A DNA stretch of 64,000 nucleotides from assembly GCF_003234965.1 (NCBI RefSeq), contig NZ_QKVK01000003.1:186001-250000 (forward strand), given 5' to 3'. Shown here one piece after another: positions 43,876-62,213 of the stretch. The notes beneath the pieces were generated by a model. The model was not told where the DNA came from. It saw nothing but the letters and a program-made list of their open reading frames with translations, and did not search any database. The translations under genes were made by a program, and so were the position numbers. Positions within the stretch are counted from its first letter, which is position 1. Each line of letters starts with the position of its first letter. The DNA is from Aestuariivirga litoralis (GTDB taxonomy: Bacteria; Pseudomonadota; Alphaproteobacteria; Rhizobiales; Aestuariivirgaceae).

Positions 43876-44340
43876 ATGGCGAACCCCTCGGTGGCCCTGG
43901 CGCTGAGCTTCGGCCTGGGCCTCGCGCCGTGGATGCCCGGCACCTTCGGGGCGCTCGGCGCCGTCCTGCTCTATCCCGCCGTCATGCTGCTGCCATGGCC
44001 CGCGCAGCTGGTTCTGGTTCTGGCGCTGCTGTGGCTCGGCTGCATCGCCTGTGGCCGTGCCGCTGCCGTTCTGGGCGGAGAGGATCCCTCTGCCATCGTC
44101 TGGGACGAGACGGTGGGCATGCTCATCACCCTGGTGCTCACACCCGCCACGCCGCTGTCCTGGCTGGTGGGTTTCCTCGCCTTCCGCGTTCTCGACATCA
44201 ACAAGCCCTGGCTGGTCGGCGCGGCCGAGCGGCATTTCCGCGGCGGCACCGGCATCATGGCCGATGACGCGCTGGCGGGGCTGTTCGCCGCCGGCATCGT
44301 GTGGGCCCTGCTCGCCCTGCTTCACGCCCTCACGGGGTGA
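43876..44340 (+). CDS. pgpA: Phosphatidylglycerophosphatase A
   Basis: A 154-residue inner-membrane phosphatase with about four helices. PgpA removes the phosphate from phosphatidylglycerol phosphate. The family motifs GLAPWMPGTFG, VWDETVGMLI and FRVLDINKPW are clear, and the terminal GGTGIMADDALAG carries the acidic pair. The ATG at 43876 gives the normal length. Earlier TTG/GTG starts (43837, 43840) are possible. The 3' end overlaps the convergent DUF4833 gene by 11 bases. Confidence 0.92.
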   Translation: MANPSVALALSFGLGLAPWMPGTFGALGAVLLYPAVMLLPWPAQLVLVLALLWLGCIACGRAAAVLGGEDPSAIVWDETVGMLITLVLTPATPLSWLVGFLAFRVLDINKPWLVGAAERHFRGGTGIMADDALAGLFAAGIVWALLALLHALTG

Positions 44341-44845
44341 AGCTTTCCTTCACCGGCTTGCCGGTTGCCAGCGCATAGCCATAGAGGTCCACCCGGGTGA
44401 CGCTCGGCACCGAGCCGCTCTCGTCGAGGTGCAGATAGGCATGGTCAAGCCGGCTCGGCACGCCGGCCACCTTGCCCTCGATGCGCGGCACGCCGTCCAC
44501 CAGCTTCAGCAGTGCCGGCCGCCTGGGGTAGGAGACGACGCGCACCATGAAACTTCCCGGCTTGCCGGGCGCCGGCTGCCACTTCACCCCGAAGGCGAAG
44601 CTGCGCTCGAGCGAGGACAGGTCGCGCTTTTCGCCGTCGTCGTTGAAGCGCCGCCAGAACACCTCCACCGGCTGGCGCGGGTCGAGCTTGCCATCGCGCA
44701 GCCGCGCTGCATAGACGATGGTGTTGGGGTTCATCGAGCGCTGCACGTAGAACACCTGGTTGGCATCGCTGGGCACCGGATAGACCTCTTCCGCGGCGAC
44801 GGGGGCCGCCAGCAGCATCAGCAATGCTGCCGCAATCGGTCTCAT
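44330..44845 (-). CDS. DUF4833 exported protein
   Basis: A 171-residue protein with a signal peptide (MRPIAAALLMLLAAPVAAEE, cleavage after AAA/VAA near residue 18). The mature part matches the DUF4833 pattern (VFYVQRSMNPNTIVYAARL, VEVFWRRFNDDGE, FAFGVKW). Function is unknown. The ATG overlaps the stop of the CDP-alcohol phosphatidyltransferase gene (ATGA), so it is coupled to lipid synthesis. Confidence 0.75.
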   Translation of the reverse strand: MRPIAAALLMLLAAPVAAEEVYPVPSDANQVFYVQRSMNPNTIVYAARLRDGKLDPRQPVEVFWRRFNDDGEKRDLSSLERSFAFGVKWQPAPGKPGSFMVRVVSYPRRPALLKLVDGVPRIEGKVAGVPSRLDHAYLHLDESGSVPSVTRVDLYGYALATGKPVKESFTP

Positions 44846-45441
44846 GCCTGCTCCTGCAGCAGCTTCTTTGCCCGCAGGAAGCGCTGCAGGGCGGTGGCGT
44901 GGGTGAGGACGGCGAGCAGCCACAGCGCCCAGGGGATCAGGTCGAGGCTGGCCCCGAACAGGCTCTGGCAGACCAGCGCGAGGCAGATGAAGAGAATGCG
45001 CTCCTGGCGTTCGAACAGGTCGGGCCAGGCGACGTTGTCGACCTTGGTTTCCATCGCGGCGCGCGCCTTCATGTAACTGGTCAGGAAGCCGCCGGAGAGG
45101 GCGAAGAAGCCCGCTGCCCATGCATCGCTCACATAGGCCAGCGCGGCGAGCGCGATCATTTCCTGGTAGCGGTCGACGATGGCGTCGAGATAGCCGCCGA
45201 AGGCCGAACTCTCGCGCCGGATGCGCGCCACAGCGCCATCGAGCGAATCGGCCGAGAAGGCCACGGCAAGGCTCAGCGCATACCAGAAGGGTGCCCGGTG
45301 CCAGACATAGGCGAGGCTCACCACGGCGATGAGGCCGAGCCCCAGCAGCGTCACCTGGTTGGCGGTCATCACGCGCGCCAGCGGCCGCGCCGGCGCCTCC
45401 CACAGCGGGTCGATGTATTTCTTGAACAACCCGTCAATCAT
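44842..45441 (-). CDS. CDP-alcohol phosphatidyltransferase
   Basis: A 199-residue membrane enzyme that transfers a phosphatidyl or nucleotide-linked head group to an alcohol. The complete signature DxxDGxxARx8GxxxDxxxD is present, at D65, D68, G69, A72, R73, G82, D86 and D90. The later SYMKARA and FERQERI positions resemble the archaetidylinositol-phosphate / inositol-phosphate-transferring branch more than PgsA (from memory, so tentative). The ATG overlaps the FGGY kinase stop by eight bases. The longer reading to 45822 is rejected. Confidence 0.88.
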   Translation of the reverse strand: MIDGLFKKYIDPLWEAPARPLARVMTANQVTLLGLGLIAVVSLAYVWHRAPFWYALSLAVAFSADSLDGAVARIRRESSAFGGYLDAIVDRYQEMIALAALAYVSDAWAAGFFALSGGFLTSYMKARAAMETKVDNVAWPDLFERQERILFICLALVCQSLFGASLDLIPWALWLLAVLTHATALQRFLRAKKLLQEQA

Positions 45442-46972
45442 CGGCGGCTCCCTCGAAGGCGGCGCGGAACCATGGCGCATTGCGCTTGTAGGCGTCGAGG
45501 AACAGCCTGAACCGCGCCTCGAAATAGGCCTGCCGCGCCGTGTCGGGCCGGTAGACGGTCTCCGAGGAGCGGTCGAAGCTCCGGGCGGCGTCCCACACGC
45601 TCGGCCGCCAGCCCAGGCCCGCGGCGGCGATGGCGCCTGCCCCGCGCACCCCGGCATTGCGCGGGTCGCGCGCCACCGCGATGTCGACGCCGAGGCAGTC
45701 CGCCAGCACCTGGCAGAGCGTGGCGTTGAGCGCCCCGCCGCCGACGGCGCGCAGCAGATGGGCGTGCTTCGTGCCCTTCTGCCTGGCCACCGACCGCCAC
45801 GCCCAGCGGGTGTTGAGGGCAACGCCCTCGGTCACCGCCTGGCGCAGGCTGGCCCGGCCATGCTGCAGCGACAGGCCGAGGAATGCGCCACGCAGCCGGT
45901 TGTCGTCCACCGGCACGCGCTCGCCGGCGAGCCACGGCAGGAACAGCGGCGGGGCAACCCCCGGCGCCTCGTCCTCCTGCGGCTCGTTGCCGGCAAGGCG
46001 TGCCAGCCAGTCGAGGCAGGAGCCGGCGCTCTCCTGGGTGGCGATCAGCAGCGGCCGGTTGCCGAAGGGGCTGAGGATCGTGGCGTAGCCCTCGCTCGCC
46101 GACAGGCGGCGGCCGGGATAGAAACCGCTGATCCACGAGCTGGTGCCAAGCGAGATGTGAAGCTCGCCGTCCTCGACCGCGCCGCTGCCGATGGCCGCGG
46201 CGCAGACATCGCCGGCGCCGGCGAAAACCGGAAGGCCCTCTGGCAGGCCCAGTTCGGTGGCCGCCGCAGCGGTGAGACCGCCCGGCGAGGACGTGCCCTC
46301 GACGATGTCCGGCAGCAGGCTGCGCTTCAGCCCGAAGCGTCGTACCAGGCTGTCCGACCAGCCCTCGCGGCCCTGCCGCGTGTCCATCATCCAGGTGACG
46401 TTGGCAAGGTCGGCGGTGGTCACGGCAAGGCCCGTGGCGCGCAGCAGCAGCCAGTCCTTCACGTCGAGCAGCTTCCACGCTTCGGCATAGGTTTCCGGCT
46501 CATGCCGCTTCAGCCACAGCATCTTGGCGGGCGGGTCCATGCCGTTGAGCGAGGGCGCGCCATTGGTGAGCCGGATCGAGTTCATGAGCTTGAACAGCCC
46601 GTAGCCGAACAGCGTGGGGAAACCTCCCATCACCTCGCGCGCCAGGCTGGCGGCGCGCTTGTCGAGCCAGATCATGCAGGGGCGCAGCGGCCTTCCATCG
46701 CGGTCAACCGCCACCACGCCGCACATCTGCGAGGCGAAGACCATGCCGGCGGCGCGCTCGCGCAGGCCGGGGCAGCTGTTGGAGAGCTTGACCAGCGCCA
46801 GCCTGAGCGCCAGCCACCAGTCGAGCGGGTCCTGCTCGGCGCAGCCGGGGCCCGGATAGGTGACGGGATAGGGGTGGTCGGCGGCGTGGAGGACGTCGAG
46901 ATCGGGTCCGATCAGCCCCACCTTCAGGCTGCTCGTGCCGACGTCCACCGCAATGATGAGATCTTGTTTCAC
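45434..46972 (-). CDS. FGGY-family carbohydrate kinase
   Basis: A 512-residue two-domain sugar or polyol kinase, xylulokinase-like. The N-terminal phosphate motif is VDVGTSSLKVGL, the FGGY-type substrate region is QMCGVVAVDRDGRP, the catalytic aspartate lies in FAGAGDVCAAAIGSG, and the adenosine site is VGGGALNATLCQVLADCLG. It uses ATP on a pentulose or polyol. It is coupled directly to a CDP-alcohol phosphatidyltransferase, which suggests the phosphorylated product may become a lipid head group (inference). Confidence 0.88.
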   Translation of the reverse strand: MKQDLIIAVDVGTSSLKVGLIGPDLDVLHAADHPYPVTYPGPGCAEQDPLDWWLALRLALVKLSNSCPGLRERAAGMVFASQMCGVVAVDRDGRPLRPCMIWLDKRAASLAREVMGGFPTLFGYGLFKLMNSIRLTNGAPSLNGMDPPAKMLWLKRHEPETYAEAWKLLDVKDWLLLRATGLAVTTADLANVTWMMDTRQGREGWSDSLVRRFGLKRSLLPDIVEGTSSPGGLTAAAATELGLPEGLPVFAGAGDVCAAAIGSGAVEDGELHISLGTSSWISGFYPGRRLSASEGYATILSPFGNRPLLIATQESAGSCLDWLARLAGNEPQEDEAPGVAPPLFLPWLAGERVPVDDNRLRGAFLGLSLQHGRASLRQAVTEGVALNTRWAWRSVARQKGTKHAHLLRAVGGGALNATLCQVLADCLGVDIAVARDPRNAGVRGAGAIAAAGLGWRPSVWDAARSFDRSSETVYRPDTARQAYFEARFRLFLDAYKRNAPWFRAAFEGAADD

Positions 46973-47017
46973 AATGCGCCGGAAACGAATTGGGGCTAGA
47001 CAGCCGTTATCGGGATT

Positions 47018-48016
47018 ATGCCGGGAAGGTCAATTCATTTGTTCCAAGCACAGCAGCCGGAGGGTGCCGCCGCCATCGACGCGGTGATCACCTGGGTGGA
47101 CGACACCACGCCGGGCTACCGCGAGATGCTGAAGGCCCATGCGCGCGCGGTGCCGGACCTCGATCCCTCGCGCACCCGCGACAATCTGGAGATCCTGCGC
47201 TATGGGCTCCGCGCGCTGGAGCGCCATGCCCCCTGGGTGAACCGGGTCTTCCTCTTCACCTGCCGCCCGCAGGTGCCCTCCTGGCTCGACACCGCGCATC
47301 CGCGCCTCACCGTCATCCACCATGACGAGGTGATCCCCGCGGCGCTGCTCCCCACCTTCAACTCCTTCGCCATCATCAGCCACCTGCACCTGATCCCCGG
47401 CCTGTCGGAAACCTTCCTCTACCTCGAGGACGACATGCTGTTCCTGAAGGACGTGACCCCCGCCGACTTCCGCGCCGCCGACGGCCGGCCACTGGTGTTC
47501 GAGAAGCCCGCCGCCACGCCGCGTCATGACACGATCCGCAACCCCGCCTCCGAAAGCCCGTGGAACATGGCACTGGCCGAATCGAACCGCCTGCTCGACC
47601 GGGACTTCGGCGCGGCGTGGCGCGGCCACGTCAACCACGTGCCACTGCTCATTTCCCGCAGCGAGTGGCTGGCCATGACCGAGCGCTATCCGGAGGCCTT
47701 TGCCGCCACCCGCACCGCGCGCTTCCGCGCGCCGGGCAACGTGGCGCCGGAATATCTCTATCCGCAGCTCATGCTGGCCGAAGGCAGGGCGGTGCGCGCC
47801 AGCCCGGCGGAGCTTCATGCCTCGAGCGGTTATGTGCCGCTCGAGGACATCTGGCCAGCCACCGCCTATGCCCTGCTCCGCGCCGAACTGCAGAACCCGA
47901 AATGGGTGACCCTCAACGACAATTTCGGCAAGCACCCGAGCCGCGTCACCGAATGGATGGCGCGCCGGTGGCTCGGGCGGGCGGCACCTCAGCGCTCCGC
48001 CTTCGAACGGGCGTGA
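47018..48016 (+). CDS. Stealth-family sugar-phosphotransferase
   Basis: A 332-residue protein with Stealth conserved regions: CR1 IDAVITWVDD (about 20-29), CR2 spanning RDNLEILRYGLRALERHAPWV, PTFNSFAIISHLHLIPGLSE and FLYLEDDML (about 63-150), and a later HVNHVPLL/YPEAF region. Stealth enzymes transfer hexose-1-phosphate or similar units to capsule or surface polymers. It is divergent from the FGGY kinase with 45 bases between, and its 3' end overlaps the convergent GT4 gene by 28 bases. Confidence 0.87.
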   Translation: MPGRSIHLFQAQQPEGAAAIDAVITWVDDTTPGYREMLKAHARAVPDLDPSRTRDNLEILRYGLRALERHAPWVNRVFLFTCRPQVPSWLDTAHPRLTVIHHDEVIPAALLPTFNSFAIISHLHLIPGLSETFLYLEDDMLFLKDVTPADFRAADGRPLVFEKPAATPRHDTIRNPASESPWNMALAESNRLLDRDFGAAWRGHVNHVPLLISRSEWLAMTERYPEAFAATRTARFRAPGNVAPEYLYPQLMLAEGRAVRASPAELHASSGYVPLEDIWPATAYALLRAELQNPKWVTLNDNFGKHPSRVTEWMARRWLGRAAPQRSAFERA

Positions 48017-49146
48017 CGCGCCATGGCGCACCGGTAGAAGGCCTCGAAATCGCCGATCCGCTGCGCCACGTCATACTGGCGGGCATGGGCCCGGCCCCAG
48101 TCGGCCAGCGCCTGCCGTTCTGGCCCGCCGTCCAGCAGCGCGGCAATGCGTGCGCCCAGCGCGGCACCATCGCCGGGCGGAACCAGCAGGCCGGCGCCGC
48201 GGCCCGTCAGCACCGTGCGGTAGCCCGCATTGCCCGCGGCGATCACCGGCGTGCCGCTGGCCAGTGCCTCTGCCAGCACGATGCCGAAGCTCTCGCCATA
48301 AAGCGCGGGTGAAACGGCCAGCGTCGCCTGCGACAGCAGATGGCACTGCTCCGCCTCCGAAGGCGTCATCACGAATTCGATTGAATCACGGCCCAGCCTG
48401 CGCTGCGCCGCCAGAACCGCATCGCGCAGATCGCCGTCGCCTGCCACCACGAAGCGCGGCTTGGCAGCGCCACCCGGCCGCGCCACCGCGCCGGAGGCCA
48501 GCCGGTCGGCCGCATCCAGCAGAACCTGCACGCCCTTGCGCGGCTCCAGCCGGCCGATGAACAGGACATCGGGCCGCTGCCGCGCTGGTGCCTTGTGGAG
48601 CATGAGAAACGGCGACAGGTCGGTGACCGGCGGCAGGACCACCGGCTGCACGCCGGACGTGCCGGGCCGCAGATGCGCCAGGGGCGCCTCCGACACGGCA
48701 ATTGCGCCGTCGAGCCGCGCCAGAAGATAGCGGCTCAGCAGCTTGAACAGGTTGCGCAGCGCCGCTCCCGTGACGCCGGGCGGCGGCGTGTCGTGAAAGG
48801 TGGCCACGCGCGTCCCGCCGAGGCGCCGGAACAGCTGCCACGGCATCAGCGGATCCCACGGCGTGTGGAAATGCACCACGTCCGGCTGCCAGCGGCCGAG
48901 CTCCGCCAGCACATTGCGCAGTTCGCCCTCGGCGGCCCATGTCAGTTCAAAGCGCGTGCCCGCAAAGGCCACGCTGCGCATCCCCCCCAGCCGCCACATC
49001 CCCGCATCGGTGGGCCTTGCAGCGCCAGGGGCAATGATCAGCGTGTCATGGCCGCGCGCTGCCAGCGCGGCAGCCAGCGCATGCATGTGCCGCTGCACCC
49101 CGCCATGCCGGTCCGGGTCATAGGGGCAAACCTGAACGATCCTCAT
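47989..49146 (-). CDS. GT4 glycosyltransferase, PimA-like
   Basis: A 385-residue GT-B retaining glycosyltransferase. The N-terminus VCPYDPDRHGGVQRHMHALA and IIAPG closely resembles mycobacterial PimA, the enzyme that mannosylates phosphatidylinositol, though PimA's own pattern is FDVPGGVQSH. The EX7E motif is ESFGIVLAE, and the donor loop is FIGRLEPRKGVQVLLDA. A substrate of phosphatidylinositol type is suggested by similarity and by inositol-phosphate synthase 6 kb away, but not proven. Confidence 0.82.
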   Translation of the reverse strand: MRIVQVCPYDPDRHGGVQRHMHALAAALAARGHDTLIIAPGAARPTDAGMWRLGGMRSVAFAGTRFELTWAAEGELRNVLAELGRWQPDVVHFHTPWDPLMPWQLFRRLGGTRVATFHDTPPPGVTGAALRNLFKLLSRYLLARLDGAIAVSEAPLAHLRPGTSGVQPVVLPPVTDLSPFLMLHKAPARQRPDVLFIGRLEPRKGVQVLLDAADRLASGAVARPGGAAKPRFVVAGDGDLRDAVLAAQRRLGRDSIEFVMTPSEAEQCHLLSQATLAVSPALYGESFGIVLAEALASGTPVIAAGNAGYRTVLTGRGAGLLVPPGDGAALGARIAALLDGGPERQALADWGRAHARQYDVAQRIGDFEAFYRCAMARHARSKAER

Positions 49147-49161
49147 GCCGGGATCGCCGGA

Positions 49162-49911
49162 CTAGACCTTGTATTCATAGACCTTGCCTGGCTCGCGCTC
49201 GCAATCGGGCGGGAAGCTCCGGCGCTTGTCGGCATAATATTGCTCACGCCAGTCACCATCCGCGGCGCGGTTGTAGGTGATGTAGAGCACGCGCCGCGGT
49301 TTGCCGGTCACATTGGGCGCGGACCGGTGCGGCGCATAGGAGTCGAAGAAGATCGCATCGCCCGGCGCGGTGGGCACCGCCACGAAGTCCATGCCCTGCA
49401 TCTGCTCGGCATTGAGCGGTGCCCACAGGTCACCGATCAGGCCGCGGTCATGATGGCCCGACACCATCTCGAGGCAGCCGTTCTCAATCGTGCAGGGATC
49501 AACGCTCACCATGGCGGTGAGGTGGAATGCGGAATATTTTCCCCAGTCCGCCTGGGCATCCTGGTGCGGCTCGAAGCCAGCGCCCCCTGGAAGCTTGAAG
49601 TTGATCTTCTCCTTGAACAGCACGGCCTCGCCGCCGAGCAGCTGCGTGCTGATGCCGCGCAGGTCGCCGTCACACAGCCCCTGGAAACCCTCATGATAGG
49701 GATAGACGTTTTCGATCCGCTGCAGCAGCCGTGCCCCGTCGCTGCGCGAGCGTTCGAAATACTTCATGGCCTTCCCGGGGGTTTCTGGCCAGCCTTCCAC
49801 GTCATCGGTCCAGCGGATGAGGTCGGCAAGCTGACGGCCCGCAAAGAGGCTGCGGATCACGAGATATCCGGTGGCGCGAAACTGTGCGATATCCTGCGGA
49901 CTTAGTTGCAT
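49162..49911 (-). CDS. Phytanoyl-CoA dioxygenase (PhyH)-family Fe(II)/2OG oxygenase
   Basis: A 249-residue non-heme iron oxygenase. The metal ligands are HxD in EPHQDAQADWG (about 117-127) and a distal histidine in SYAPHRSAPN, with the 2-oxoglutarate arginine in KPRRVLYITYN. These define the PhyH fold. The substrate is unknown; family members hydroxylate lipids, amino acids and natural products. It is next to the GT4 gene on the same strand (15 bases). The ATG at 49911 lacks a strong ribosome site. The reading extended to 50583 is rejected. Confidence 0.88.
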   Translation of the reverse strand: MQLSPQDIAQFRATGYLVIRSLFAGRQLADLIRWTDDVEGWPETPGKAMKYFERSRSDGARLLQRIENVYPYHEGFQGLCDGDLRGISTQLLGGEAVLFKEKINFKLPGGAGFEPHQDAQADWGKYSAFHLTAMVSVDPCTIENGCLEMVSGHHDRGLIGDLWAPLNAEQMQGMDFVAVPTAPGDAIFFDSYAPHRSAPNVTGKPRRVLYITYNRAADGDWREQYYADKRRSFPPDCEREPGKVYEYKV

Positions 49912-50019
49912 GAAATGCGGCAAACTTGACAACGCAAACGAGGATGCTACAGCCCCCATAGGTTGTCGAGAAATTTCTTTGTGCCAATCGCGCAGCGCGC
50001 GCCAGCAACGGAACCTCAC

Positions 50020-50757
50020 GTGGGCATTGAACAGGCACTGATTTTGGCGGCAGGGCGCGGCGTGCGCATGGGGCCGCGCGGGCAAAGCATTCCCAAGGGC
50101 TTCATCGAGGTGGGGGGCAGGACACTCGTGTCGCGTTCGCTGTCGCTGCTGGCGGCAGCCGGCATTCGCGACGTCACCATCGTCACCGGCCACCTGGCGG
50201 AAAACTATGCCGGGCTTGCACCCGTGCCTGGCCTCGCCGTCGCCACCCTGCATAATCCGCTTTTCGCGGAGAAGGGCAGTTTCGAGAGCCTGCGTGTCGG
50301 CCTTGGCGCCATGGGCGGTCCATTCCTGCTGCTTGAGTCGGACATCATCTACGAACCACGCGCCCTGGCCACCGTCCTCGAATCCGGTCACGACAGCGTC
50401 ATCCTGACATCGGGCCCGACCGGCGCGGGCGACGAGGTCTATGTCTGGGCCGACGATCACCACGGCGTGGCGCGGTTCCGCGGCATGTCCAAGCAGCGCA
50501 CGACCCACCCCGATGCGCCCTTCGGCGAACTCGTCGGCATCTCGAAGATTTCCGCAGCGCTGGCGCACTCGCTCTCGATCCATGCCGATGAAGCGAAGCC
50601 CGACAGCGACTATGAAAGTGCCGTGGTCAGGGCGGCGGGCGACACCCGCATCGCCTGCCTGCGCGTCGATGACCTGCTATGGGGCGAGATCGACGACGAG
50701 GCCATGCTGGCTCGCGTCGAGGCACATCTGTGGCCCCGCCTCGTTGCCCTTGGCTGA
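50020..50757 (+). CDS. LicC-like nucleotidyltransferase
   Basis: A 245-residue NTP-transferase. ALILAAGRGVRMGPRGQSIPKGFIEVGG is the nucleotide-binding signature, LLLESDIIYEP gives the metal aspartate, and the tail DDLLWGEIDDEAML resembles phosphocholine/aminoethylphosphonate cytidylyltransferases (LicC, PntC). It activates a phosphorylated small head group as its CDP derivative (inferred from family). Start GTG at 50020 is preferred; in-frame GTG 49981 and TTG 49963 are alternatives. It is divergent from the PhyH gene. Confidence 0.8.
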   Translation: MGIEQALILAAGRGVRMGPRGQSIPKGFIEVGGRTLVSRSLSLLAAAGIRDVTIVTGHLAENYAGLAPVPGLAVATLHNPLFAEKGSFESLRVGLGAMGGPFLLLESDIIYEPRALATVLESGHDSVILTSGPTGAGDEVYVWADDHHGVARFRGMSKQRTTHPDAPFGELVGISKISAALAHSLSIHADEAKPDSDYESAVVRAAGDTRIACLRVDDLLWGEIDDEAMLARVEAHLWPRLVALG

Positions 50758-50784
50758 CATCAAACACCGATCCTGAATCGTCGT

Positions 50785-50801
50785 CTCCTGCCCGGCGGGA
50801 G
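50785..50801. repeat. Short palindrome between convergent genes
   Basis: CTCCTGCC/GGCGGGAG-type hairpin with one G-T pair, between the convergent nucleotidyltransferase and ABC-transporter genes. Its CTCC...GGGAG composition echoes the palindromic spacer at 2291-2420. It could act as a shared transcription end. Confidence 0.4.
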
Positions 50802-50827
50802 AGGAAGAGGCCCCGGCGCGTCCGCCG

Positions 50828-52507: not shown

Positions 52508-52620
52508 GGACGTGACTTGGCTCTGCTCTGCTCATCGCGGCCGGCAAGGCGGGGGGCCGCCTTGCCGTAGGCCGCGCCACTTGATAGACACACTCGGGGA
52601 TTGTCACAATAGGAAGTATT

Positions 52621-54336: not shown

Positions 54337-54347
54337 GACAATTCCCG

Positions 54348-55139
54348 ATGAATCTCAATAGCTTATGGATTGGCGGCACGTTACCACCCCTGCAGCGCCT
54401 CTGCCTTGCCTCCGCCGTGGCCACCGGCTGCCCCGTCCGCCTGTTCACCTATGAGGATGTGGATGGCATCCCCGAGGGTGTCGCCGTCGCCGATGCGCGC
54501 GAGGTGCTTGGCCTCGACAAGTTGATCCGCCATCGCAAGTCCGGCAGCGTGGCCTTGTTTTCTGATCGTTTTCGCTATGAAATCATTGGCTTGGAACTCG
54601 GCGCCTGGATCGATACCGACGTTCTGTTCCTGCAAGCGCCCGAGGCTGCGGGCGACTGTCTCGTGGGGTTGGAGGACAGCAAGCTCGTCGGCTCCTGCTT
54701 CATCTGGATCAAGCCGGGCCATCCGCTGATCGATGACCTGCGCCTCCACGCCGCTGACGAGTACCCCATCCCCGGCTGGTATCCCCTGTGGCGGCGAACA
54801 TATCTCAAGTTACGGAAAGCCTTGGGGAAACCCGAGCACGTCAGCGACCACGACTGGGGCGTGATCGGTCCCAACCTGCTCACCTGGCTGTTGCAGCAGC
54901 GCGGCATGTTCGACGACGCCCGTCCCGTCACCTGGGTCTCGGGCCTGCCATGGGACGAACGCCACAACATCTGGGACGGCAGTTACGACTGGCGGCGGTG
55001 GATCAACTCCGATACGGTCGGAATTCACTTGTGGAACTATGGCTTGTCGCAGGAAGAGCGATATCGGAGACCAGAACCGGGAAGTCTTCTGCAGACGGTT
55101 GCGGACAAGTGCGGATTTCAATGGCCCACGACAAGCTGA
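54348..55139 (+). CDS. Glycosyltransferase (GT32-like)
   Basis: A 263-residue protein. The GT32 pattern SDRFRYEIIGLELGAWIDTDVLFLQAP (about 66-92) contains the metal motif DTD (D84/D86 area), and a C-terminal WNYGLSQEERYRRP follows. These enzymes transfer alpha-linked hexoses to lipids or glycans. The ATG is 12 bases after the upstream gene's stop. The 104-base gap before the next gene is AT-rich and may hold an additional promoter. Confidence 0.8.
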   Translation: MNLNSLWIGGTLPPLQRLCLASAVATGCPVRLFTYEDVDGIPEGVAVADAREVLGLDKLIRHRKSGSVALFSDRFRYEIIGLELGAWIDTDVLFLQAPEAAGDCLVGLEDSKLVGSCFIWIKPGHPLIDDLRLHAADEYPIPGWYPLWRRTYLKLRKALGKPEHVSDHDWGVIGPNLLTWLLQQRGMFDDARPVTWVSGLPWDERHNIWDGSYDWRRWINSDTVGIHLWNYGLSQEERYRRPEPGSLLQTVADKCGFQWPTTS

Positions 55140-55243
55140 CAGGCCTTGTCCAAGGTGTTGTTCTGAACGGCTTGTCTTGCCGGGAATTTTGTGACAGTTG
55201 TCCGGATAACTTAAATTTGAATACTTTTTCGTGAGGGGTAACC

Positions 55244-56332
55244 TTGATTCGCACGGCTATCGTGGGTGTGGGCAATTGCGCCAGTTCACTCGTACAGGGC
55301 GTCTACTATTGCCGCGCTCAGGGCGCATCAGCGATCGGGGTACCATTTCCGAAGCTTGGGCCTTACGTTCCGGGCGACATCGAATTCGTCGCGGCCTTCG
55401 ACATTGATGGCCGCAAGACGGGCCAGGATTTATCGGAGGCCGTGTTCGCAGCCCCCAATTGCACCACCGTTTTCCACCCCAGCCTGCCAAAGACGAATGT
55501 GACGGTGGGCCGCGGTCCCAATCTCGACGGAATGACTGCCTTTCTCGGCAACCAGGCGCCGCAGCGCAGCTTCGTGCCGAGCCCGGCACCGGAAATGTCC
55601 GCGGCGGAGGTTGTCTCCGCGATGAAGGCGGCGCGTACCGAGGTGGTCATCAGCTTCCTGCCCGTCGGCTCACAGCAGGCCAGCGAGTTCTATGCCACAT
55701 GCGCTCTCGAGGCGGGTGCCGCCTATGTCAATGCCATTCCGGTCTTCCTCGCCAGCAATCCGGTCTGGGCCAGCGCATTCAAACAGCGCGGACTTCCCAT
55801 CCTGGGCGACGACTTCAAGGCCCAGGTTGGGGCCACCATTGTTCACCGGACGCTGGCCCATCTGTTTGACATGCGCGGCGCTGTGCTGGACCGGTCCTAT
55901 CAGCTGAATGTCGGTGGCAATACCGACTTCCTCAACATGATGGATCACAACAGGCTTCTCAGCAAACGCGAGTCGAAGACAGAAGCCGTGCAATCCGTGC
56001 TCGAAAGCAGGCTTTCGGACGACAATGTCCGGATCGGACCCTCCGACTATGTTCCCTGGCTCAACGACCAGAAGGTCGGATATGTGCGTCTCGAGGGTCG
56101 CCTTCTTGGTGGTGTTCCCATGAATATGGAAGTGCGGCTGTCGGTCGAAGATTCGCCCAATGCCGCCGCCATGGCGATGTCGGCCATCCGCTGCGCGAAG
56201 ATTGCCCTTGACCGCAAACTGTCCGGTGCGATCTGGGAGGCCTCCGCCTTCCTGTTCAAGCATCCACCACGCCAGGTGCAGGATGACGAAGGCCAGCGTT
56301 TGCTTGTCGAGTTTGCCGAAGGAAGGCTCTGA
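55244..56332 (+). CDS. ino1: myo-Inositol-1-phosphate synthase
   Basis: A 362-residue NAD-dependent synthase that cyclises glucose-6-phosphate to inositol-3-phosphate. The length and layout match the short bacterial (actinobacterial-type) enzymes. The NAD motif is IVGVGNCASSLVQG (residues 6-19). LGDDFKAQVGATIVHR and LNVGGNTDFLNM carry active-site residues, and PSDYVPWLND and SPNAAAMAMSAIRCAK are conserved. It starts with TTG at 55244, nine bases after a GAGGGG ribosome site. It is rare in Hyphomicrobiales and implies an inositol-containing product. Confidence 0.92.
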   Translation: MIRTAIVGVGNCASSLVQGVYYCRAQGASAIGVPFPKLGPYVPGDIEFVAAFDIDGRKTGQDLSEAVFAAPNCTTVFHPSLPKTNVTVGRGPNLDGMTAFLGNQAPQRSFVPSPAPEMSAAEVVSAMKAARTEVVISFLPVGSQQASEFYATCALEAGAAYVNAIPVFLASNPVWASAFKQRGLPILGDDFKAQVGATIVHRTLAHLFDMRGAVLDRSYQLNVGGNTDFLNMMDHNRLLSKRESKTEAVQSVLESRLSDDNVRIGPSDYVPWLNDQKVGYVRLEGRLLGGVPMNMEVRLSVEDSPNAAAMAMSAIRCAKIALDRKLSGAIWEASAFLFKHPPRQVQDDEGQRLLVEFAEGRL

Positions 56333-56340
56333 TCCCAGCG

Positions 56341-57147
56341 ATGCCGGGACATGCGATCATCACGGGCGGAAGCAGCGGGATCGGCCTGGCAATCGCAAAA
56401 TTGCTGTCGTCGCGCGGCGCCTCCGTTTCCCTGATAGCGCGCAATCGCGACAAGCTTGGGGCCGCTCGTGAGGTCCTTTTGTCTGCGGCTGATGGACGGG
56501 CCAAGGTTCAGACCTTTTCGGCGGATGTCAGGGACGCCGAGGAATTGCAACAGGCGATCGCCTCGGCCGTCGCGGCCTTCGGTACTCCAGACTGGGGAAT
56601 ATCGTCCGCCGGCATCGTGATCCCGGGCATGTTCGTGAAGCAGTCGTTGCGGGACCACGAGGACCAGTGGCGAACCAACTACCTTGGCTCCCTGCAATTC
56701 GCGCACTTCATTCTTCCGCACCTCGAAAAGTCTTCCAGACCAAGACTCGTGCTCATTGCCTCAGGTGCGGCCTTTGCGGGTCTCTATGGGTACAGTTCCT
56801 ATGGTCCTGCAAAGTTCGCCGTGCGCGGACTTGCAGAGAGCCTGCGTGTGGAGCTGAAGCCCCGCAACGTGTCTGTTACCATAGCATTTCCAGGCGACAC
56901 GGATACGCCGCAGCTGCGCTCCGAACTGAAGCTGCGACCGAAAGTGACGAGCGAGCTTGCGCGCGGCGGTGGCGTCATGAGTCCGGAAGCGGTCGCAAAA
57001 GGCATCATCAGCGCGGCAGAGCGAGGTGACTTTCAGGTCACTTTCGGTTGGCAGCTCAAAATGCTGGCTCGCACCCATAGTCTCATCGCCCCATTGCTCC
57101 GCGGCTATCAGGACTGGCTCATCAAGCGCTCTGGTGAGGATCCGTGA
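56341..57147 (+). CDS. SDR reductase, 3-ketodihydrosphingosine reductase-like
   Basis: A 268-residue short-chain dehydrogenase. The cofactor motif is TGGSSGIG (8-15), N113 is in NYLG, and S141, Y154 and K158 form the catalytic set. The stretch YGPAKFAVRGLAE and PGDTDTP (about 184-190), followed by a KLRPKVT-like tail, is characteristic of KDSR, the sphingolipid reductase, rather than FabG. The usual NxAG is SSAG. It is eight bases after ino1 and overlaps the CdsA-like gene (GTGA), so a lipid role is likely. Confidence 0.82.
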   Translation: MPGHAIITGGSSGIGLAIAKLLSSRGASVSLIARNRDKLGAAREVLLSAADGRAKVQTFSADVRDAEELQQAIASAVAAFGTPDWGISSAGIVIPGMFVKQSLRDHEDQWRTNYLGSLQFAHFILPHLEKSSRPRLVLIASGAAFAGLYGYSSYGPAKFAVRGLAESLRVELKPRNVSVTIAFPGDTDTPQLRSELKLRPKVTSELARGGGVMSPEAVAKGIISAAERGDFQVTFGWQLKMLARTHSLIAPLLRGYQDWLIKRSGEDP

Positions 57148-58040
57148 CAGACCACCTGACCGTCGCCGCGCTTGCGCAGGCGATCGGATGGGCATTCGCC
57201 GTTGGCGCGCTGCTTCTGCTTGTTCTCACGGTGCTGCCGCAGACCCGAACGATCGCCCGCGGCCTGTGGCCCATCCTGGTCTCGGAGGCCGGGATCCTCG
57301 CCGCGGGGGTTCTGCCATGGTTCCTGCCCAGTTGGGCCCTGTTTACCCTTCTTGTGATCGTTGCTTCACGGATCGGGTTCGAGAGTGGAACCGTTCACGG
57401 GCTCATTGCCGCAAGACCCGTCCGCCTCATGTATTCGCTCCTGTTACCGGTCGCTTGTGTGATGGCTTGGTTCGGCGACTCAGCGCTTGTGCTGCCAGGT
57501 GCTGCGGCTCTCATGCTTGCGTCATTGCTTGCAATGAGCTTCTCCCGGCCTCGTTCCCTCGTAGGTGACCTTGCTAGATTCAGCATTTTTCCTTTGATTC
57601 CCTTCGCGGTGTTTTGCCATCTGGCAGGTCAGCCAGGCATGGCGTCCCTCATTGTTCTGGCCTTCTTTCTTGTCGAGACATTTGACAGTTTTTCGCTTCT
57701 TGGCGGCAAGCTGTTTGGCAAAACCTTGCTGGTGCCGCGCCTGAGCCCGCGCAAGACATGGGAAGGCCTTGCCACGGGAAGCGCAACCCTGTTCATGGCA
57801 GTCCTGGCGCTTGTGTCATGGCTCGGGCTACCGTTGCTCGAAATGTTGATGGGGGGAATGGTGGTGATTGCCTCGGCAATCACCGGTGATCTCCTTGGCT
57901 CCGCCGCCAAGCGTAGCGCCAGCGTGAAGGACTACCCGCCGGTCATGAAAGTCCAGGGAGGACTGCTCGACATCATCGACTCGTGGATCGTCGCCGGACC
58001 TTGCCTGGTCGGCTTCTACTTTCTCACAGCGGGTCAGTAG
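57144..58040 (+). CDS. CdsA-like phosphatidate cytidylyltransferase
   Basis: A 298-residue membrane protein with about eight helices. CdsA family features are seen in GGKLFGKTLLVPRLSPRKTWEG and in GDLLGSAAKRSASVKDYPPVMKVQGGLLDIIDS. The signature deviates from the consensus: the histidine of HGG is Gln and the final D-R is replaced by Ile/Asp-Ser. It may make a CDP-lipid for a special acceptor or have lost activity. Start GTG overlaps the SDR stop. It is the last gene of the plus operon, 47 bases from the convergent MaoC gene. Confidence 0.85.
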   Translation: MTDHLTVAALAQAIGWAFAVGALLLLVLTVLPQTRTIARGLWPILVSEAGILAAGVLPWFLPSWALFTLLVIVASRIGFESGTVHGLIAARPVRLMYSLLLPVACVMAWFGDSALVLPGAAALMLASLLAMSFSRPRSLVGDLARFSIFPLIPFAVFCHLAGQPGMASLIVLAFFLVETFDSFSLLGGKLFGKTLLVPRLSPRKTWEGLATGSATLFMAVLALVSWLGLPLLEMLMGGMVVIASAITGDLLGSAAKRSASVKDYPPVMKVQGGLLDIIDSWIVAGPCLVGFYFLTAGQ

Positions 58041-58087
58041 CCTGTGCTTGCTCGGGCCGGATCTTCGGATTGCCTGACGAGGCATTT

Positions 58088-58468
58088 CTAAGCGTTGGGT
58101 TCCAAGCCTGCTTCGGCAATGGCAACCAGCGTACCATCCGCAAGAGTGGCGAGAAGACGCAAGTGGAGCCGAGAGTCCGCCATATCGAGCTTGCGCGCCT
58201 TGAGAATCAGCGCGCTACCGACCGGCACCGGGCGAACGAAGCGAATCTGCAACGTGACTGTATGGTAGTCCCTGAGGCTCTCGAGAAGAGCCTCAAATCG
58301 GGCCGCAATGAACATTCCATGCAGGATCGGCTTCTCGAGACCGGCATCACGCGCATGGCTGGGCGAGAAGTGGATTGGGTTTTCATCTCCCGATGCGCGC
58401 GCAAAGGCCAAGACCTGTTCCGTGGTGACAACGCCTGTTTGCTGAGGCTCCGGGATCTCACTGGTCAT
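58088..58468 (-). CDS. MaoC-like hot-dog dehydratase subunit
   Basis: A 126-residue single hot-dog protein with the MaoC hydratase motif FARASGDENPIHFS (D28 and H33, the D-x4-H pair) followed by PILHGMF. This corresponds to the C-terminal, catalytic half of (R)-enoyl hydratase/HadB-type dehydratases. The ATG at 58468 overlaps the upstream hot-dog gene by 11 bases. A longer start at 58486 is possible. It probably pairs with that gene product. Confidence 0.87.
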   Translation of the reverse strand: MTSEIPEPQQTGVVTTEQVLAFARASGDENPIHFSPSHARDAGLEKPILHGMFIAARFEALLESLRDYHTVTLQIRFVRPVPVGSALILKARKLDMADSRLHLRLLATLADGTLVAIAEAGLEPNA

Positions 58469-58841
58469 CGGAGCAACGCTCCACAAACCAAATGTCGGAT
58501 GACGTCTGGAGACAGAGAAGACCCGCCTTATCTCTCAGGCACTGCTCGAGACGAAGGCGGTTCACGTCGACCGGCACGAGTTCAATCTCACAGCGATAGT
58601 CGACGTCCAGTTGGAGGGGATGTATCGCGTGGCTATCCTGCCCGGCATGGAGGGGATAGCGGCCTCTGGCGAATTTGCCGATTGCATCGACAACCTGGCC
58701 TGCTGTGGCCGCGCGGAATGCCATACTGACAAGCGGTGCGTCTCCGCTAAGGCCAAGTGCTGCACGATAGCTGCGGGCCTCTTTCGGAGTAATCCGGAAT
58801 GGGAATGCAGGAAGACTCACGCTGGGCGGCATCGCTGTCAC
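58458..58841 (-). CDS. Hot-dog-fold protein, probable dehydratase partner subunit
   Basis: A 127-residue protein resembling the non-catalytic N-terminal half of MaoC-type dehydratases. The pattern GRYPLHAGQDSHAIHPLQLDVDY matches the hot-dog core of FAS1-type regions, with no D-x4-H catalytic pair. Start GTG at 58841 overlaps the ketoacyl-synthase stop (GTGA); an internal ATG (58832) is an alternative. Together with the next gene it resembles a HadA/HadB-like heterodimer (inference). Confidence 0.62.
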   Translation of the reverse strand: MTAMPPSVSLPAFPFRITPKEARSYRAALGLSGDAPLVSMAFRAATAGQVVDAIGKFARGRYPLHAGQDSHAIHPLQLDVDYRCEIELVPVDVNRLRLEQCLRDKAGLLCLQTSSDIWFVERCSDDQ

Positions 58842-60061
58842 TGAGCAGAGGCCTTGCGCACGATGAGGCTCGCATTGATCCCGCCAAAGGCAAACGAGTT
58901 TGACATCGCGGCCGATATAGAAACGGGCCGCGCCAAGTTCGGCACCGGATCACGAAGGCAGTCACGATCCGGGCCTTGCCAGTTTATCGTTGGGGGAGCC
59001 ACGTCGGCTTGGGTGGCCTTGACGGTGACAACAAGCTCGAGAGCCCCGGCCGCACCAAGCGTGTGTCCGTGTATGGGTTTCGTGGAGGATACTGAAAGCC
59101 TGTCCACTCCAGAACCGAACACCCGGAGGAGAGCCTCGCTCTCAGACCGGTCATTGAGAATCGTGCCAGTTCCATGTGCATTGACGTAATCGATGTCGTC
59201 CGCCTCCAGGCCGGCATCGGCAATAGCCAACTGCATGGCCGTTGCTGCGCCTGTTGCATCTGGCCGCACGATATCGCCAGCATCACTCGTACTGCCAAAG
59301 CCGGCGAGTTCCACATGCGGCCGGGCTCCGCGTTCCCGTGCTGACTGCTCGGTCTCGAGCATCAGCATCGCGGCGCCTTCGCCGAGGACCATTCCGTCAC
59401 GTCCGGCCGAGAACGGCCGGCAATCGCGGAGTGTCATGACACGGAGTGTCTCCCATGCCCGAAAGGTTGCAGGGGTGATGAGGCACTCACTTCCGCCGAC
59501 CAGGGCCCGATCGGCCAATCCCTGGCGCAGCAGCATCAACCCCAGGCCGATGGCCTGGCTGGAGGAGGAGCATGCACTCGACACCGCAAGGGACATGCCT
59601 TTGGCACCGAACGCCATCGACAGGTGGGAGGCGGCCGCGTTTGGCATCACCTTCGGAATGGTCATCGGGTCAGTGCGCTCGTGCGACTGATAGAATTTGT
59701 AGTGCTCGATGTCTGACGTCGTGGCGCCACCAATGCCGCTGCCAACAAGAACCGCAGCCCTTGTGCCGAGGGGTGTTGATGCGGGCCACCCTGCATCGGC
59801 CAACGCTTCCCGGGCGGCCACAAGCGCCATTTGTGCAAACCGATCTGTCGACCTGATCGTCTCGGCGGGCAGCAGAGTAGCGGCATCGAAATCCGGCAGG
59901 TGCGCAGCCCGCTTCACTTGCTGATTGGAGGTGCGGGGCAGGGCCAGTACCCGCACGCCGGTTCTGCCCTCGCGCGTGGCATCCCACAGTGAATTCACCC
60001 CTAGTCCCAGGGCGGTGACGGCACCCATGCCGGTGATGAAAACGCGCGGCCTCGATCCCAT
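58838..60061 (-). CDS. Beta-ketoacyl-[ACP] synthase (KAS II-like)
   Basis: A 407-residue thiolase-fold condensing enzyme. The catalytic triad is C164 (SSACSSSSQA), H296 (NAHGTGT) and H333 (PIHGHTLGAAG). It condenses an acyl chain with malonyl-ACP. The ATG overlaps the acyl-carrier-protein stop by one base (TGATG). It is separate from the housekeeping fab cluster, so a specialised chain-elongation role is likely. Confidence 0.93.
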   Translation of the reverse strand: MGSRPRVFITGMGAVTALGLGVNSLWDATREGRTGVRVLALPRTSNQQVKRAAHLPDFDAATLLPAETIRSTDRFAQMALVAAREALADAGWPASTPLGTRAAVLVGSGIGGATTSDIEHYKFYQSHERTDPMTIPKVMPNAAASHLSMAFGAKGMSLAVSSACSSSSQAIGLGLMLLRQGLADRALVGGSECLITPATFRAWETLRVMTLRDCRPFSAGRDGMVLGEGAAMLMLETEQSARERGARPHVELAGFGSTSDAGDIVRPDATGAATAMQLAIADAGLEADDIDYVNAHGTGTILNDRSESEALLRVFGSGVDRLSVSSTKPIHGHTLGAAGALELVVTVKATQADVAPPTINWQGPDRDCLRDPVPNLARPVSISAAMSNSFAFGGINASLIVRKASAQ

Positions 60062-60318
60062 CAGGAGCGCTGCTTCTCCAGATGTGGCCGCAACGCCACG
60101 ACGAAGTCTCCGACCGTTCGCGCGTCAGAGAGGGAACTGTCCACCGGTATGTAGGCTCCGAACTCTTCCTCGACTGCCATCAGGATGACAATGACGTCAG
60201 CGGACGCGATCCCGAGGCTGTCAAGGGTGGCGTCAGGGGTGAGCTTGGCCTTGTCGATCAACCCTTCACGCGCCACGATCGCGAGAAGCCGATCCTCGAT
60301 ATGGTCAGATGCAGTCAT
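60061..60318 (-). CDS. Acyl carrier protein
   Basis: An 85-residue ACP. The phosphopantetheine attachment serine is S34 in LDSLGIAS, with the acidic helix II-like stretch following. The ATG at 60318 is preferred; the longer reading to 60363 is not ACP-like. It probably carries the chain for the coupled ketoacyl synthase. Confidence 0.88.
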   Translation of the reverse strand: MTASDHIEDRLLAIVAREGLIDKAKLTPDATLDSLGIASADVIVILMAVEEEFGAYIPVDSSLSDARTVGDFVVALRPHLEKQRS

Positions 60319-60387
60319 GCGACGCGGAACGCCCACCCATGGAAATATCTTGCGTTGTGGCAATCTAGAAAGATGAGGCCCTACTGT

Positions 60388-61173
60388 CTATACATCTTTG
60401 CCAGATTGGCCTCCCCGCAGATTTCGTGCCGGTAGCTCGAAAAGGGAGGCCGTCCCCTCCTCGATGACGTGTTCCAGGCGTCGAACAAACATGTCCCGAC
60501 GCAGCCCGGGCTCGATTGGGGGAAGAAATGCGATTACGGCATGACCCGGAGACGGCAGGACGGTTCCCGCCGGCCACTGGCGCCCGGAATTGACCGCAAC
60601 GGGCCAGCAGGGAGCCTTCAACGCGGAATACAGCAACCCCACGCCCGCCTTGTAGTCCGGCGGAGCCCCCACCTGGCGACGTGAACCTTCCGGAAAGATG
60701 ACGACTGGCCGGCCTGCGTGATGTGCTGCTTGGGCCGCGGAGAGCAGCGAGCGTGCAGCATCAAGGTCTCCGGAGCGGTCAACACCAATATGTCCCATCT
60801 TGCGGAGTATGCTGCCGATGATGGGAAGGGCCAGCAACTCGCTTTTCAGAATGATGGCCGGATCACCGAGCGCGTGCTGTAGCACAAGCGTTTCCAGAGC
60901 CGACTGGTGTTTGGCGGCGATGAGCGTGGGGCCGCACGACCGTGCGCTTAGCCCCCTCACCTCGAAGCTCAGTCCCGTCACAACACGCAATAGGCGGAGA
61001 ATGACTCCGAGATAGGAATTGACAATGGCGACAACGTAACGTCGGGGCAGCATGAGGGCGGGAAGGAGGACCATATAGACCATGGTCACCGTGGACATGC
61101 ACAGCCAGAAGCCGGCATGACGAAGCTGGCGGATCAAGGGACTGGGACGAGCGGCCGGATCAAGGAGGTCCAT
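60388..61173 (-). CDS. 1-Acylglycerol-3-phosphate acyltransferase (PlsC) family protein
   Basis: A 261-residue membrane-associated acyltransferase with one N-terminal helix (about 20-45). Motif I is KHQSALET, an H-x4-E variant (H89, E94) of the usual H-x4-D, found in part of the family. Motif III is FPEGSRR (160-166). It can esterify lysophospholipids or other lipid alcohols. The ATG at 61173 lies eight bases after the upstream gene stop. A longer start at 61260 would overlap that gene and is rejected. Confidence 0.87.
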   Translation of the reverse strand: MDLLDPAARPSPLIRQLRHAGFWLCMSTVTMVYMVLLPALMLPRRYVVAIVNSYLGVILRLLRVVTGLSFEVRGLSARSCGPTLIAAKHQSALETLVLQHALGDPAIILKSELLALPIIGSILRKMGHIGVDRSGDLDAARSLLSAAQAAHHAGRPVVIFPEGSRRQVGAPPDYKAGVGLLYSALKAPCWPVAVNSGRQWPAGTVLPSPGHAVIAFLPPIEPGLRRDMFVRRLEHVIEEGTASLFELPARNLRGGQSGKDV

Positions 61174-61181
61174 TGTCGGGT

Positions 61182-62153
61182 CTAGTTGATAAAGCCCAAG
61201 AGACCCTCCTCCGCACCCAGGGATCTGACCGCCTTTTCCTTCTCCGGCTCTGGCCGGCACGACTGCATTTTTGCAATTCCCATTGTGATATCAATGATGA
61301 GCTGTCTGTCGGTATGAGACTCGATTGCGGGTAGCGGCACGGAACACAGGCTGCCCGAACCTGGTTGACCAAACAACCGCCTCTTCCAGAAATATCCGCG
61401 GCGGCTGTGAGCGTGTTCACGCTGGATGCCGTAGCGGGCAAGAAGCTGCCGCTCCTCCTCGTCAAGATCAACACCGATCGACTTGAGGTATGTATAGAAC
61501 CGCCCGGTTTCGTGATCTACCTTTTCGCGATGGCGCATTTGGAAAGCATCGACGACTCCGATCGACGCATCTTGAAGGAGTCGGGGCCAGACCAGATCGA
61601 GACCATAGCCTGATATCGATTGGCTGAAGGTGGGGATCAAGGCGTAGAGGGCCTTCTGGCTGATATATGGTGCCATCACTTCGACAAACGACGATTCCCT
61701 GTAGATGTAACCGGGTTGCTGAAGAGTCATCTTCCAGTAGGCACCCGAATCTCGCGTCAATGCGGGCTGCGCCAACTGTAGCCCGACGGCGTCGACGAAG
61801 GCCAAGAACTGACTTAGCCGCGAAGCGTCAAACTCCACATCACCATCCAGAAACAGATAGCCGTCGTAGGCCTGCAAGAGGCCACGATCCCGCAGAAAGA
61901 GCTCCGCTGCATGAAATTTGCTGAGCCCCCCCGTCATCACGAACTCCGCCTGCGACAAGAGAGACTCATTCTTGCCGGGCGGCGCATAAAGCCGGAGGGC
62001 AAGGTCGAAGTTGCGCTGCTCTGGTGTCAGGCTGAGGAGTGACGACGCCACATCTTCGCGTAGCACCACAAAGACCAGAAAACGCCGACGACCTGTACGG
62101 CTATCTGAAAGGATCTTGAGAGTCCTGTCGTTGCGCCACTGCCCGACAGTCAC
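61182..62153 (-). CDS. DUF707-family glycosyltransferase-like protein
   Basis: A 323-residue protein beginning at GTG (62153). The central block GLSKFHAAELFLRD, YDGYLFLDGDVEFD, LAQPALTRDSGAYWKM and SSFVEVMAPYIS, then SGYGLDLVWP, matches the DUF707 pattern. The fold is likely GT-A with DGD metal site (about 103-105). It probably adds a sugar to an exported glycan or lipid. It is followed by the PlsC gene. Confidence 0.72.
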   Translation of the reverse strand: MTVGQWRNDRTLKILSDSRTGRRRFLVFVVLREDVASSLLSLTPEQRNFDLALRLYAPPGKNESLLSQAEFVMTGGLSKFHAAELFLRDRGLLQAYDGYLFLDGDVEFDASRLSQFLAFVDAVGLQLAQPALTRDSGAYWKMTLQQPGYIYRESSFVEVMAPYISQKALYALIPTFSQSISGYGLDLVWPRLLQDASIGVVDAFQMRHREKVDHETGRFYTYLKSIGVDLDEEERQLLARYGIQREHAHSRRGYFWKRRLFGQPGSGSLCSVPLPAIESHTDRQLIIDITMGIAKMQSCRPEPEKEKAVRSLGAEEGLLGFIN

Positions 62154-62213
62154 GACAAGTCCCCGCTTCGCACGCGCTCAGTCCACGAAGGGGAGTTGGC
62201 GGACGCGCATCCG

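Follow-up and report, generated by a model that had tools for sequence, protein, structure and literature searches.

Gene content and the inositol core

The window studied here is a 64,000-nucleotide stretch of Aestuariivirga litoralis (positions 186001–250000 of contig C20 in a genome of 4.23 Mb), and its 43876–61173 region holds a cluster of putative lipid genes (Table 1). We propose that this accessory cluster directs the synthesis of a glycosylated inositol phospholipid and most likely connects with sphingolipid metabolism; from gene families and their neighbourhoods, we assign this reading a probability of roughly 0.72. A sequence-only reading had already suggested one pathway for such a lipid. 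This agrees with the clustering of a myo-inositol-3-phosphate synthase (MIPS), a CDP-alcohol transferase of the phosphatidylinositol phosphate synthase (PIPS) type, a PgpA-family phosphatase and a PimA-like family 4 glycosyltransferase (GT4), which recur together in the genus. The genes named at that stage are real, as PgpA, the CDP-alcohol transferase, GT4, GINT1_N, MIPS, a short-chain dehydrogenase/reductase (SDR), CdsA, MaoC, a ketoacyl synthase (KAS), an acyl carrier protein (ACP) and PlsC all pass Pfam cut-offs. Searches of Pfam, NCBIfam and PDB added DUF4833, FGGY kinase, Stealth, PhyH, PntC-like nucleotidyltransferase and ABC exporter genes.

The best PDB match of the MIPS is the inositol-3-phosphate synthase 1gr0 (378 bits, next 166.5), presumably the mycobacterial, INO1-type enzyme, and its score against NCBIfam TIGR03450 is 402.9 bits (cut-off 638). 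The CDP-alcohol transferase scores 118.9 bits for archaetidylinositol phosphate synthase (AIPS), 78.9 for PIPS and 23.9–25.8 for phosphatidylglycerophosphate (PGP) synthase, all of them under the equivalog cut-offs (180 and 170 for the first two). At E ≤ 0.01 it matches seven PDB sequences, each a DIPPS-type, AF2299 or PIPS entry. Furthermore, it carries DxxDGxxAR..GxxxDxxxD together with SYxKAR and ERxER stretches, the basic residues of which we take to have a binding role.

Among 41 genomes (A. litoralis and 40 relatives, 25 of the 41 in the genus), MIPS was found in 11, six of them in the genus. PgpA was found in five, all of them MIPS carriers within the genus (Fisher 1.1e-4 within the genus; Fisher values for co-occurrence given here ignore relatedness), and was not found in the sixth MIPS carrier of the genus, a draft of 820 contigs, or in the five MIPS carriers outside it. 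Given this restriction, PgpA probably does not serve as the general PGP phosphatase in these bacteria and is probably dedicated to the inositol lipid pathway, as is its homologue in Bacteroides. We propose it as a predicted phosphatase of phosphatidylinositol phosphate (PIP) or its ceramide equivalent.

According to excerpts of PMC9246714, deletion of the MIPS, PIPS or PgpA-homologue gene of B. thetaiotaomicron abolishes inositol lipids (phosphatidylinositol, PI), and PIP accumulates without the PgpA homologue; excerpts of PMC8791184 state that the PgpA gene of Bacteroides could not be deleted there. By analogy, this three-step logic fits the window, which clusters the same MIPS, PIPS-motif transferase and PgpA-family phosphatase as BT_1522–BT_1526 in those excerpts. 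The Phreatobacter-type relatives described below also share a PAP2_3 protein with that cluster. Unlike Bacteroides, the window type has a 3-ketodihydrosphingosine reductase (KDSR)-like gene, a variant CdsA, FGGY, DUF4833, GT4, Stealth and PntC-like genes, and its stretch lacks an AUR1-like gene, whereas BT_1524 is given in the same excerpts as a GtrA protein, not DUF4833. The INO1-type MIPS, PIPS-type enzyme and PimA-like GT4 also resemble mycobacterial synthesis of PI and phosphatidylinositol mannosides, from which the window differs by its PgpA-family phosphatase, sphingolipid-type genes, private acyl set and Gram-negative host.

Table 1. Features of the cluster, in window coordinates
Feature	Position	Strand	Basis
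PgpA-family phosphatase	43876-44340	+	PF04608 128.8 bits
DUF4833 protein	44330-44845	-	PF16117 103 bits; signal-like N-terminus by eye
CDP-alcohol phosphotransferase, PIPS/AIPS type	44842-45441	-	Pfam 47.2 bits; NCBIfam, PDB, motif
FGGY carbohydrate/polyol kinase, overlaps transferase gene	45434-46972	-	Pfam/NCBIfam; xylulose kinase nearest solved relative
Stealth-family protein	47018-48016	+	PF11380, PF17102
GT4 glycosyltransferase, PimA-like	47989-49146	-	PDB matches to PimA
PhyH dioxygenase, nearest methylphosphonate hydroxylase	49162-49911	-	NF052437 192 bits, cut-off 500
NTP transferase, PntC-like	49963-50757	+	PDB 6pd1 E 2.4e-38
ABC exporter, YojI/cyclic-peptide type; possible flippase	50828-52507	-	Pfam/NCBIfam
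571-aa protein with C-terminal GINT1_N domain	52621-54336	+	PF24793 89.8 bits, residues 316-538
Glycosyltransferase-like protein	54348-55139	+	by eye from sequence; no Pfam match
Myo-inositol-3-phosphate synthase (MIPS)	55244-56332	+	PF01658 117.1 bits; NCBIfam, PDB
SDR, 3-ketodihydrosphingosine-reductase-like	56341-57147	+	PDB 8jat TSC10
Variant CdsA-family protein (CDP-lipid synthase), altered signature	57144-58040	+	PF01148 (CTP_transf_1) 95.4 bits
MaoC-type dehydratase	58088-58468	-	PF01575
Dehydratase-like ORF	58458-58841	-	tblastn matches in genus loci
Ketoacyl synthase (KAS)	58838-60061	-	PF00109/PF02801; C, H, H motifs
Acyl carrier protein	60061-60318	-	PF00550
PlsC-family acyltransferase	60388-61173	-	PF01553

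From MIPS to the end, GC drops from about 0.67 to 0.55–0.61. Window positions 54000–64000 and locus L169 (1–12000) have a GC of ~0.55, followed by surface-polysaccharide-type genes, and are likely an acquired or fast-changing stretch. A TPR-sulfotransferase gene (40823–43009) and a partial paralogue (about 30362–31228) lie near the cluster, and similar genes adjoin it in some members of the genus.

Distribution and two types of cluster

DUF4833 was found in 29 of 297 genomes of the order, at 30 places, 19 of which were fetched with about 11–20 kb of context. We tabulated 29 loci picked for DUF4833 or a MIPS cluster, using bit thresholds of our own, and left out 11 cluster-less MIPS loci (L035–L043, L046 and L049). 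Many of these assemblies are drafts, and contig ends cut several loci short, so that an absence applies to the stretch read. In L020, L021, L038 and L046, from other Hyphomicrobiales and Sphingomonas, MIPS has other neighbours, namely an NTP transferase or a CDP-alcohol transferase, which perhaps represent a CDP-inositol route.

Within the genus MIPS, SDR and CdsA are adjacent, and the MIPS of a record deposited as Aestuariivirga sp. (L045) is 91% identical to that of the window. Other families have MIPS, SDR, CdsA, PgpA and DUF4833 together, in part with the transferase–FGGY pair and the ACP–KAS–MaoC set. A set of MIPS, PIPS-type transferase, PgpA, KDSR-like reductase, variant CdsA, DUF4833, FGGY and PimA-like GT4 thus recurs, with varying completeness, in several families of Hyphomicrobiales. 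The 23 tabulated loci that bear MIPS include 21 with PgpA, 13 with an oxoamine synthase, seven with a GNAT protein like bacterial ceramide synthase (bCerS) and 15 with KAS; for all 29 rows the counts are 17 for oxoamine synthase, 11 for bCerS-like genes, 17 for KAS and 17 for LptF/G. The cluster is a patchily distributed accessory cluster, no description of which was found in the open-licence literature.

The fall in GC and the polysaccharide-like genes that follow could also mean that lipid, capsule and polysaccharide genes with no common function came to lie side by side by chance in acquired DNA of low GC. The grouping is unlikely to be accidental, because overlapping sets recur in other families, and they do so in different gene orders. 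The copy-number association of PgpA and CdsA argues the same way, and we consider this already disfavoured explanation very improbable.

Two cluster types emerge, one with an AUR1-like gene (Phreatobacter-type) and one with KDSR plus an extra CdsA-family gene (window type, comprising the genus, genome G061 and families f41 and f27). In the Phreatobacter-type family f20 a PAP2_3 protein of at least 75 bits lies on the DUF4833 contig in 10 of 10 genomes, at a distance of 13–17 kb in nine and 47 kb in one. AUR1 is the only PDB match of the f20 copy from G154 (E 5.8e-16), to which the copy from a Phreatobacter sp. record (L044) is 73% identical; the Phreatobacter-type copy tested scored 131.8 for the NCBIfam phosphoinositol dihydroceramide synthase (cut-off 480). 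AUR1-like genes occur in four of the 29 rows, all Phreatobacter-type or similar. The 16 rows with KDSR show none in the stretch read, and the window set likewise has no AUR1-like phosphoinositol ceramide synthase. PAP2_3 proteins of at least 70 bits were found in 5/16 window-type genomes and in 3/5 genus genomes without the cluster.

The predicted model of DUF4833 is mostly beta (pLDDT 92.1) with no clear match to a known fold, and Q35, P59, W64, R65, G71, E80 and G86 are invariant among 28 sequences. DUF4833 also has sphingolipid-type neighbours in four genomes (G030, G227, G109 and G073) whose stretches read contain no MIPS; G030 carries a different MIPS at another site. G061 has a second DUF4833 copy without any of the other tabulated markers. 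This copy (contig C49, 51484–52927; L096) directly adjoins a PAP2_3 gene, and there is no MIPS in the stretch.

Sugar, phosphonate and acyl-chain genes

PimA entries 4n9w and 2gej are the sole PDB sequences matching the GT4 at E ≤ 1e-25 (about 104 bits), and the Stealth protein presumably acts as a sugar-phosphate transferase. A GINT1-like glycosyltransferase had been named in the earlier reading. The GINT1 domain is not supported as evidence for a glycosylinositol-ceramide transferase: PF24793 spans only residues 316–538 of the 571, with a GH43 match below the cut-off alongside, so that a GINT1-type transferase is not shown. Of the private acyl set suggested earlier, KAS, ACP, MaoC and PlsC are borne out by Pfam, and the second dehydratase-like ORF has no Pfam match at E ≤ 0.001 or at E ≤ 0.01.

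The NTP transferase matches 6pd1, a nucleotidyl transferase/aminotransferase class V entry, with 135.6 bits (E 2.4e-38), whereas the next match has 37.7 bits (1.8e-8). We take 6pd1 to be PntC, the CTP:2-aminoethylphosphonate cytidylyltransferase. In NCBIfam the top match of the window's NTP transferase is the inositol-phosphate cytidylyltransferase (IPCT) domain, at 47.9 bits. The latter would suit a soluble inositol solute (di-inositol phosphate) or a CDP-inositol route with this enzyme as inositol-phosphate cytidylyltransferase; a CDP-inositol donor route is known from Rhodothermus, and the cluster's CDP-alcohol transferase also resembles DIPPS. We hold this to be very unlikely: the best solved relative is 6pd1 by a wide distance in score, the stretches read from genome G001, family f27 and the Phreatobacter-type loci did not contain the gene, and a soluble product leaves no role for PgpA and CdsA.

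PntC-like genes are present in 10 of the 29 rows. Five f41 loci have matches to aminoethylphosphonate transaminase or phosphonopyruvate decarboxylase, and all five have the PntC-like gene; NCBIfam cut-offs are passed by the phosphonate genes of G168 and by the PepM–nucleotidyltransferase fusion of G238. Since these phosphonate genes occur with the PntC-like gene, it is reasonable to guess that carriers of the latter, though not all carriers of the cluster, put a phosphonate group on the product. PMC9174665 mentions ceramide aminoethylphosphonate from Bdellovibrio. In L098, L100, L101, L103 and L104 aminoethylphosphonate biosynthesis genes adjoin MIPS, oxoamine synthase and LptF/G genes.

Lipid backbone and predicted pathway

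The label of KDSR-like ketoreductase given to the SDR earlier is supported by its best solved relative, the sphingolipid reductase TSC10 (8jat, 103.4 bits over residues 4–235; next 89.5). The protein has a YxxxK site, and its DTDTP stretch presumably corresponds to that of human KDSR. NCBIfam does not label it a KDSR; its top model there is PRK06181, at 145.5 bits (cut-off 215).

The CdsA signature IPGHGGxxDRxD is absent from the cluster CdsA; it is altered to QGGxxD(I/V)xD(A/S)W in all 14 copies aligned, with KR, KD, GD and SPxKT kept. IPGHGG is retained in 8/8 higher-scoring CdsA copies read, which come from f41, f27 and f37 genomes and do not include the other copy of A. litoralis. All 16 genomes with a window-type cluster have two or three CdsA-family matches (the two of G316 being partial), whereas each of 15 other genomes (10 of f20 and five genus genomes without MIPS) has a single match and none an extra copy.

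Serine palmitoyltransferase (SPT) and ceramide synthase had been noted as missing, which is true of the stretch and untrue of the genome. The proposed genome-wide search for an alpha-oxoamine synthase and a ceramide synthase found both types in a ceramide-type locus on contig C1, at about 206.7–216.4 kb (L116 8690–15398 and L117 1190–5437). This locus encodes SPT, ACP, an epimerase, an AMP-binding synthetase, a bCerS-like GNAT, a phosphoesterase, two LptF/G-like permeases and a DAGK-type kinase, so that the bacterial ceramide synthesis set (SPT, bCerS, CerR, ACP and synthetase) lies together. The SPT matches SPT 2x8u with 452 bits and the NCBIfam SPT model with 589.4 (cut-off 500); bCerS is called from homology to the F9 family and a GNAT match below the cut-off, and CerR from the Epimerase family and gene place only. 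A search at E ≤ 1e-90 found SPT in 24 of the 25 genomes of the genus; ceramide synthesis therefore looks general in the genus and the inositol cluster an addition to it.

The oxoamine synthase of the f20 family is 44–48% identical to the genus SPT, and the copy tested reached 467 of the 500 required for SPT. Those of f41 and f27 are divergent; the f27 copy tested scored 325 for BioF and 286 for SPT, both below the cut-off, and in the PDB it is closest to an SPT (207.6 bits). One genome has two very similar HemA-like oxoamine synthases, judged from motifs and by eye (L083, L084).

The contig C1 locus resembles the ceramide and ceramide-phosphoglycerate pathway of Caulobacter as set out in excerpts of PMC11324152 and PMC12275187, in SPT, ACP, epimerase, synthetase, bCerS-like GNAT, DAGK-type kinase, LptF/G and phosphoesterase; orthology to CpgB, CpgC and CpgA in the loci read rests on gene order. 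PMC11324152 gives CC_1160 of Caulobacter as a ceramide kinase, and its authors raise the idea that ceramide might be NDP-activated by CC_1161, a protein with a CDP-diacylglycerol-synthase domain. Unlike Caulobacter, A. litoralis has the related kinase gene but no match in its genome to the protein that lies between kinase and SPT in other Alphaproteobacteria (the CC_1161 position), which leaves the altered CdsA as a candidate for the activation step. Its exchange for that protein is not clean, as G008 and G061 have both. Moreover, the motif of the window transferase differs from that of the transferase beside the kinase, and the headgroup would be inositol, not glycerate.

Alternatively, carriers may make only plain, diacylglycerol-based PI and PI-glycosides as in mycobacteria, with CdsA as an extra supply of CDP-diacylglycerol and no ceramide involved. 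The PIPS-type transferase, the PimA-like GT4 and a PlsC within the set would suit such a product, the PIP intermediate of Bacteroides sits on diacylglycerol (PMC9246714, in part), and in the genus SPT occurs irrespective of the cluster. However, these genomes have a second, higher-scoring CdsA-family gene, the signature of the cluster copy is uniformly changed, and the KDSR-like SDR adjoins this variant. Oxoamine synthase in 13/23 and bCerS-like genes in 7/23 MIPS-bearing loci, and DUF4833 beside such genes where no MIPS was read, also speak against a pathway of PI alone, which we regard as rather unlikely. The earlier guess at a sphingolipid is strengthened by the oxoamine-synthase, bCerS-like and AUR1-like genes in relatives' clusters and by the ceramide-type locus of A. 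litoralis itself, without settling whether ceramide or diacylglycerol carries the inositol. If an inositol lipid is made, we lean slightly towards ceramide as its backbone, with diacylglycerol otherwise.

Several observations weigh against a sphingolipid-linked inositol pathway. The transferase and MIPS stay below every NCBIfam equivalog cut-off they match, and the low-GC part continues into genes that by eye look like surface-polysaccharide genes. The proposed pathway leaves the roles of FGGY, DUF4833 and Stealth unexplained, and the KAS set is missing from two of the six genus rows (G001, and G008 on a contig of 16.4 kb). The 11 loci left out of the table, among 25 MIPS loci from named records, have no cluster partners around them; MIPS alone is therefore no marker of the cluster. 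In the genus SPT is present with or without MIPS, so the ceramide and inositol loci are untied. Finally, the two PAP2_3 proteins read in A. litoralis are not orthologous to the AUR1-like family, and thus no classical inositol phosphoceramide synthase was found in its genome.

The pathway that we predict from the enzyme families, their recurrent grouping and the extra copies is putative in every reaction, in reaction order and in backbone. MIPS would form inositol-3-phosphate and the variant CdsA a CDP-activated lipid, from which the PIPS-type transferase would make a lipid-phosphoinositol-phosphate. PgpA would then take off the terminal phosphate, and the PimA-like GT4, Stealth and other transferases would attach sugars. 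Aminoethylphosphonate for further decoration may be activated by the PntC-like enzyme and hydroxylated by the PhyH dioxygenase, and the ABC exporter may flip the product. The KAS/ACP/dehydratase set would provide a special acyl chain and KDSR would reduce a sphingoid ketone. The proposed product is a glycosylated, perhaps aminoethylphosphonate-decorated inositol lipid.

For an inositol phosphoceramide made without AUR1, we put forward a more tentative and indeed doubtful route, in which a ceramide kinase would yield ceramide-1-phosphate and the altered CdsA CDP-ceramide. The PIPS-type enzyme would swap CMP for inositol-3-phosphate, PgpA would dephosphorylate, and GT4, Stealth and PntC would lead to a bacterial glycosyl, phosphonate-bearing counterpart of the glycosylinositol phosphoceramides that fungi and plants make.

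Among bacteria, inositol sphingolipids are known chiefly from Bacteroidetes. Relatively few bacteria are described as producing inositol lipids, and Heaver et al. reported an inositol-ceramide-like lipid in Novosphingobium acidiphilum, which according to the excerpts lacks the known clusters (PMC9246714). The cluster of Hyphomicrobiales offers testable genes and may provide a second chemical way of making inositol phosphoceramide, with DUF4833 as a marker family that often lies beside sphingolipid-type genes. Since in relatives the core genes stand beside sphingolipid-type genes, carriers may make counterparts of the inositol sphingolipids of fungi and plants.

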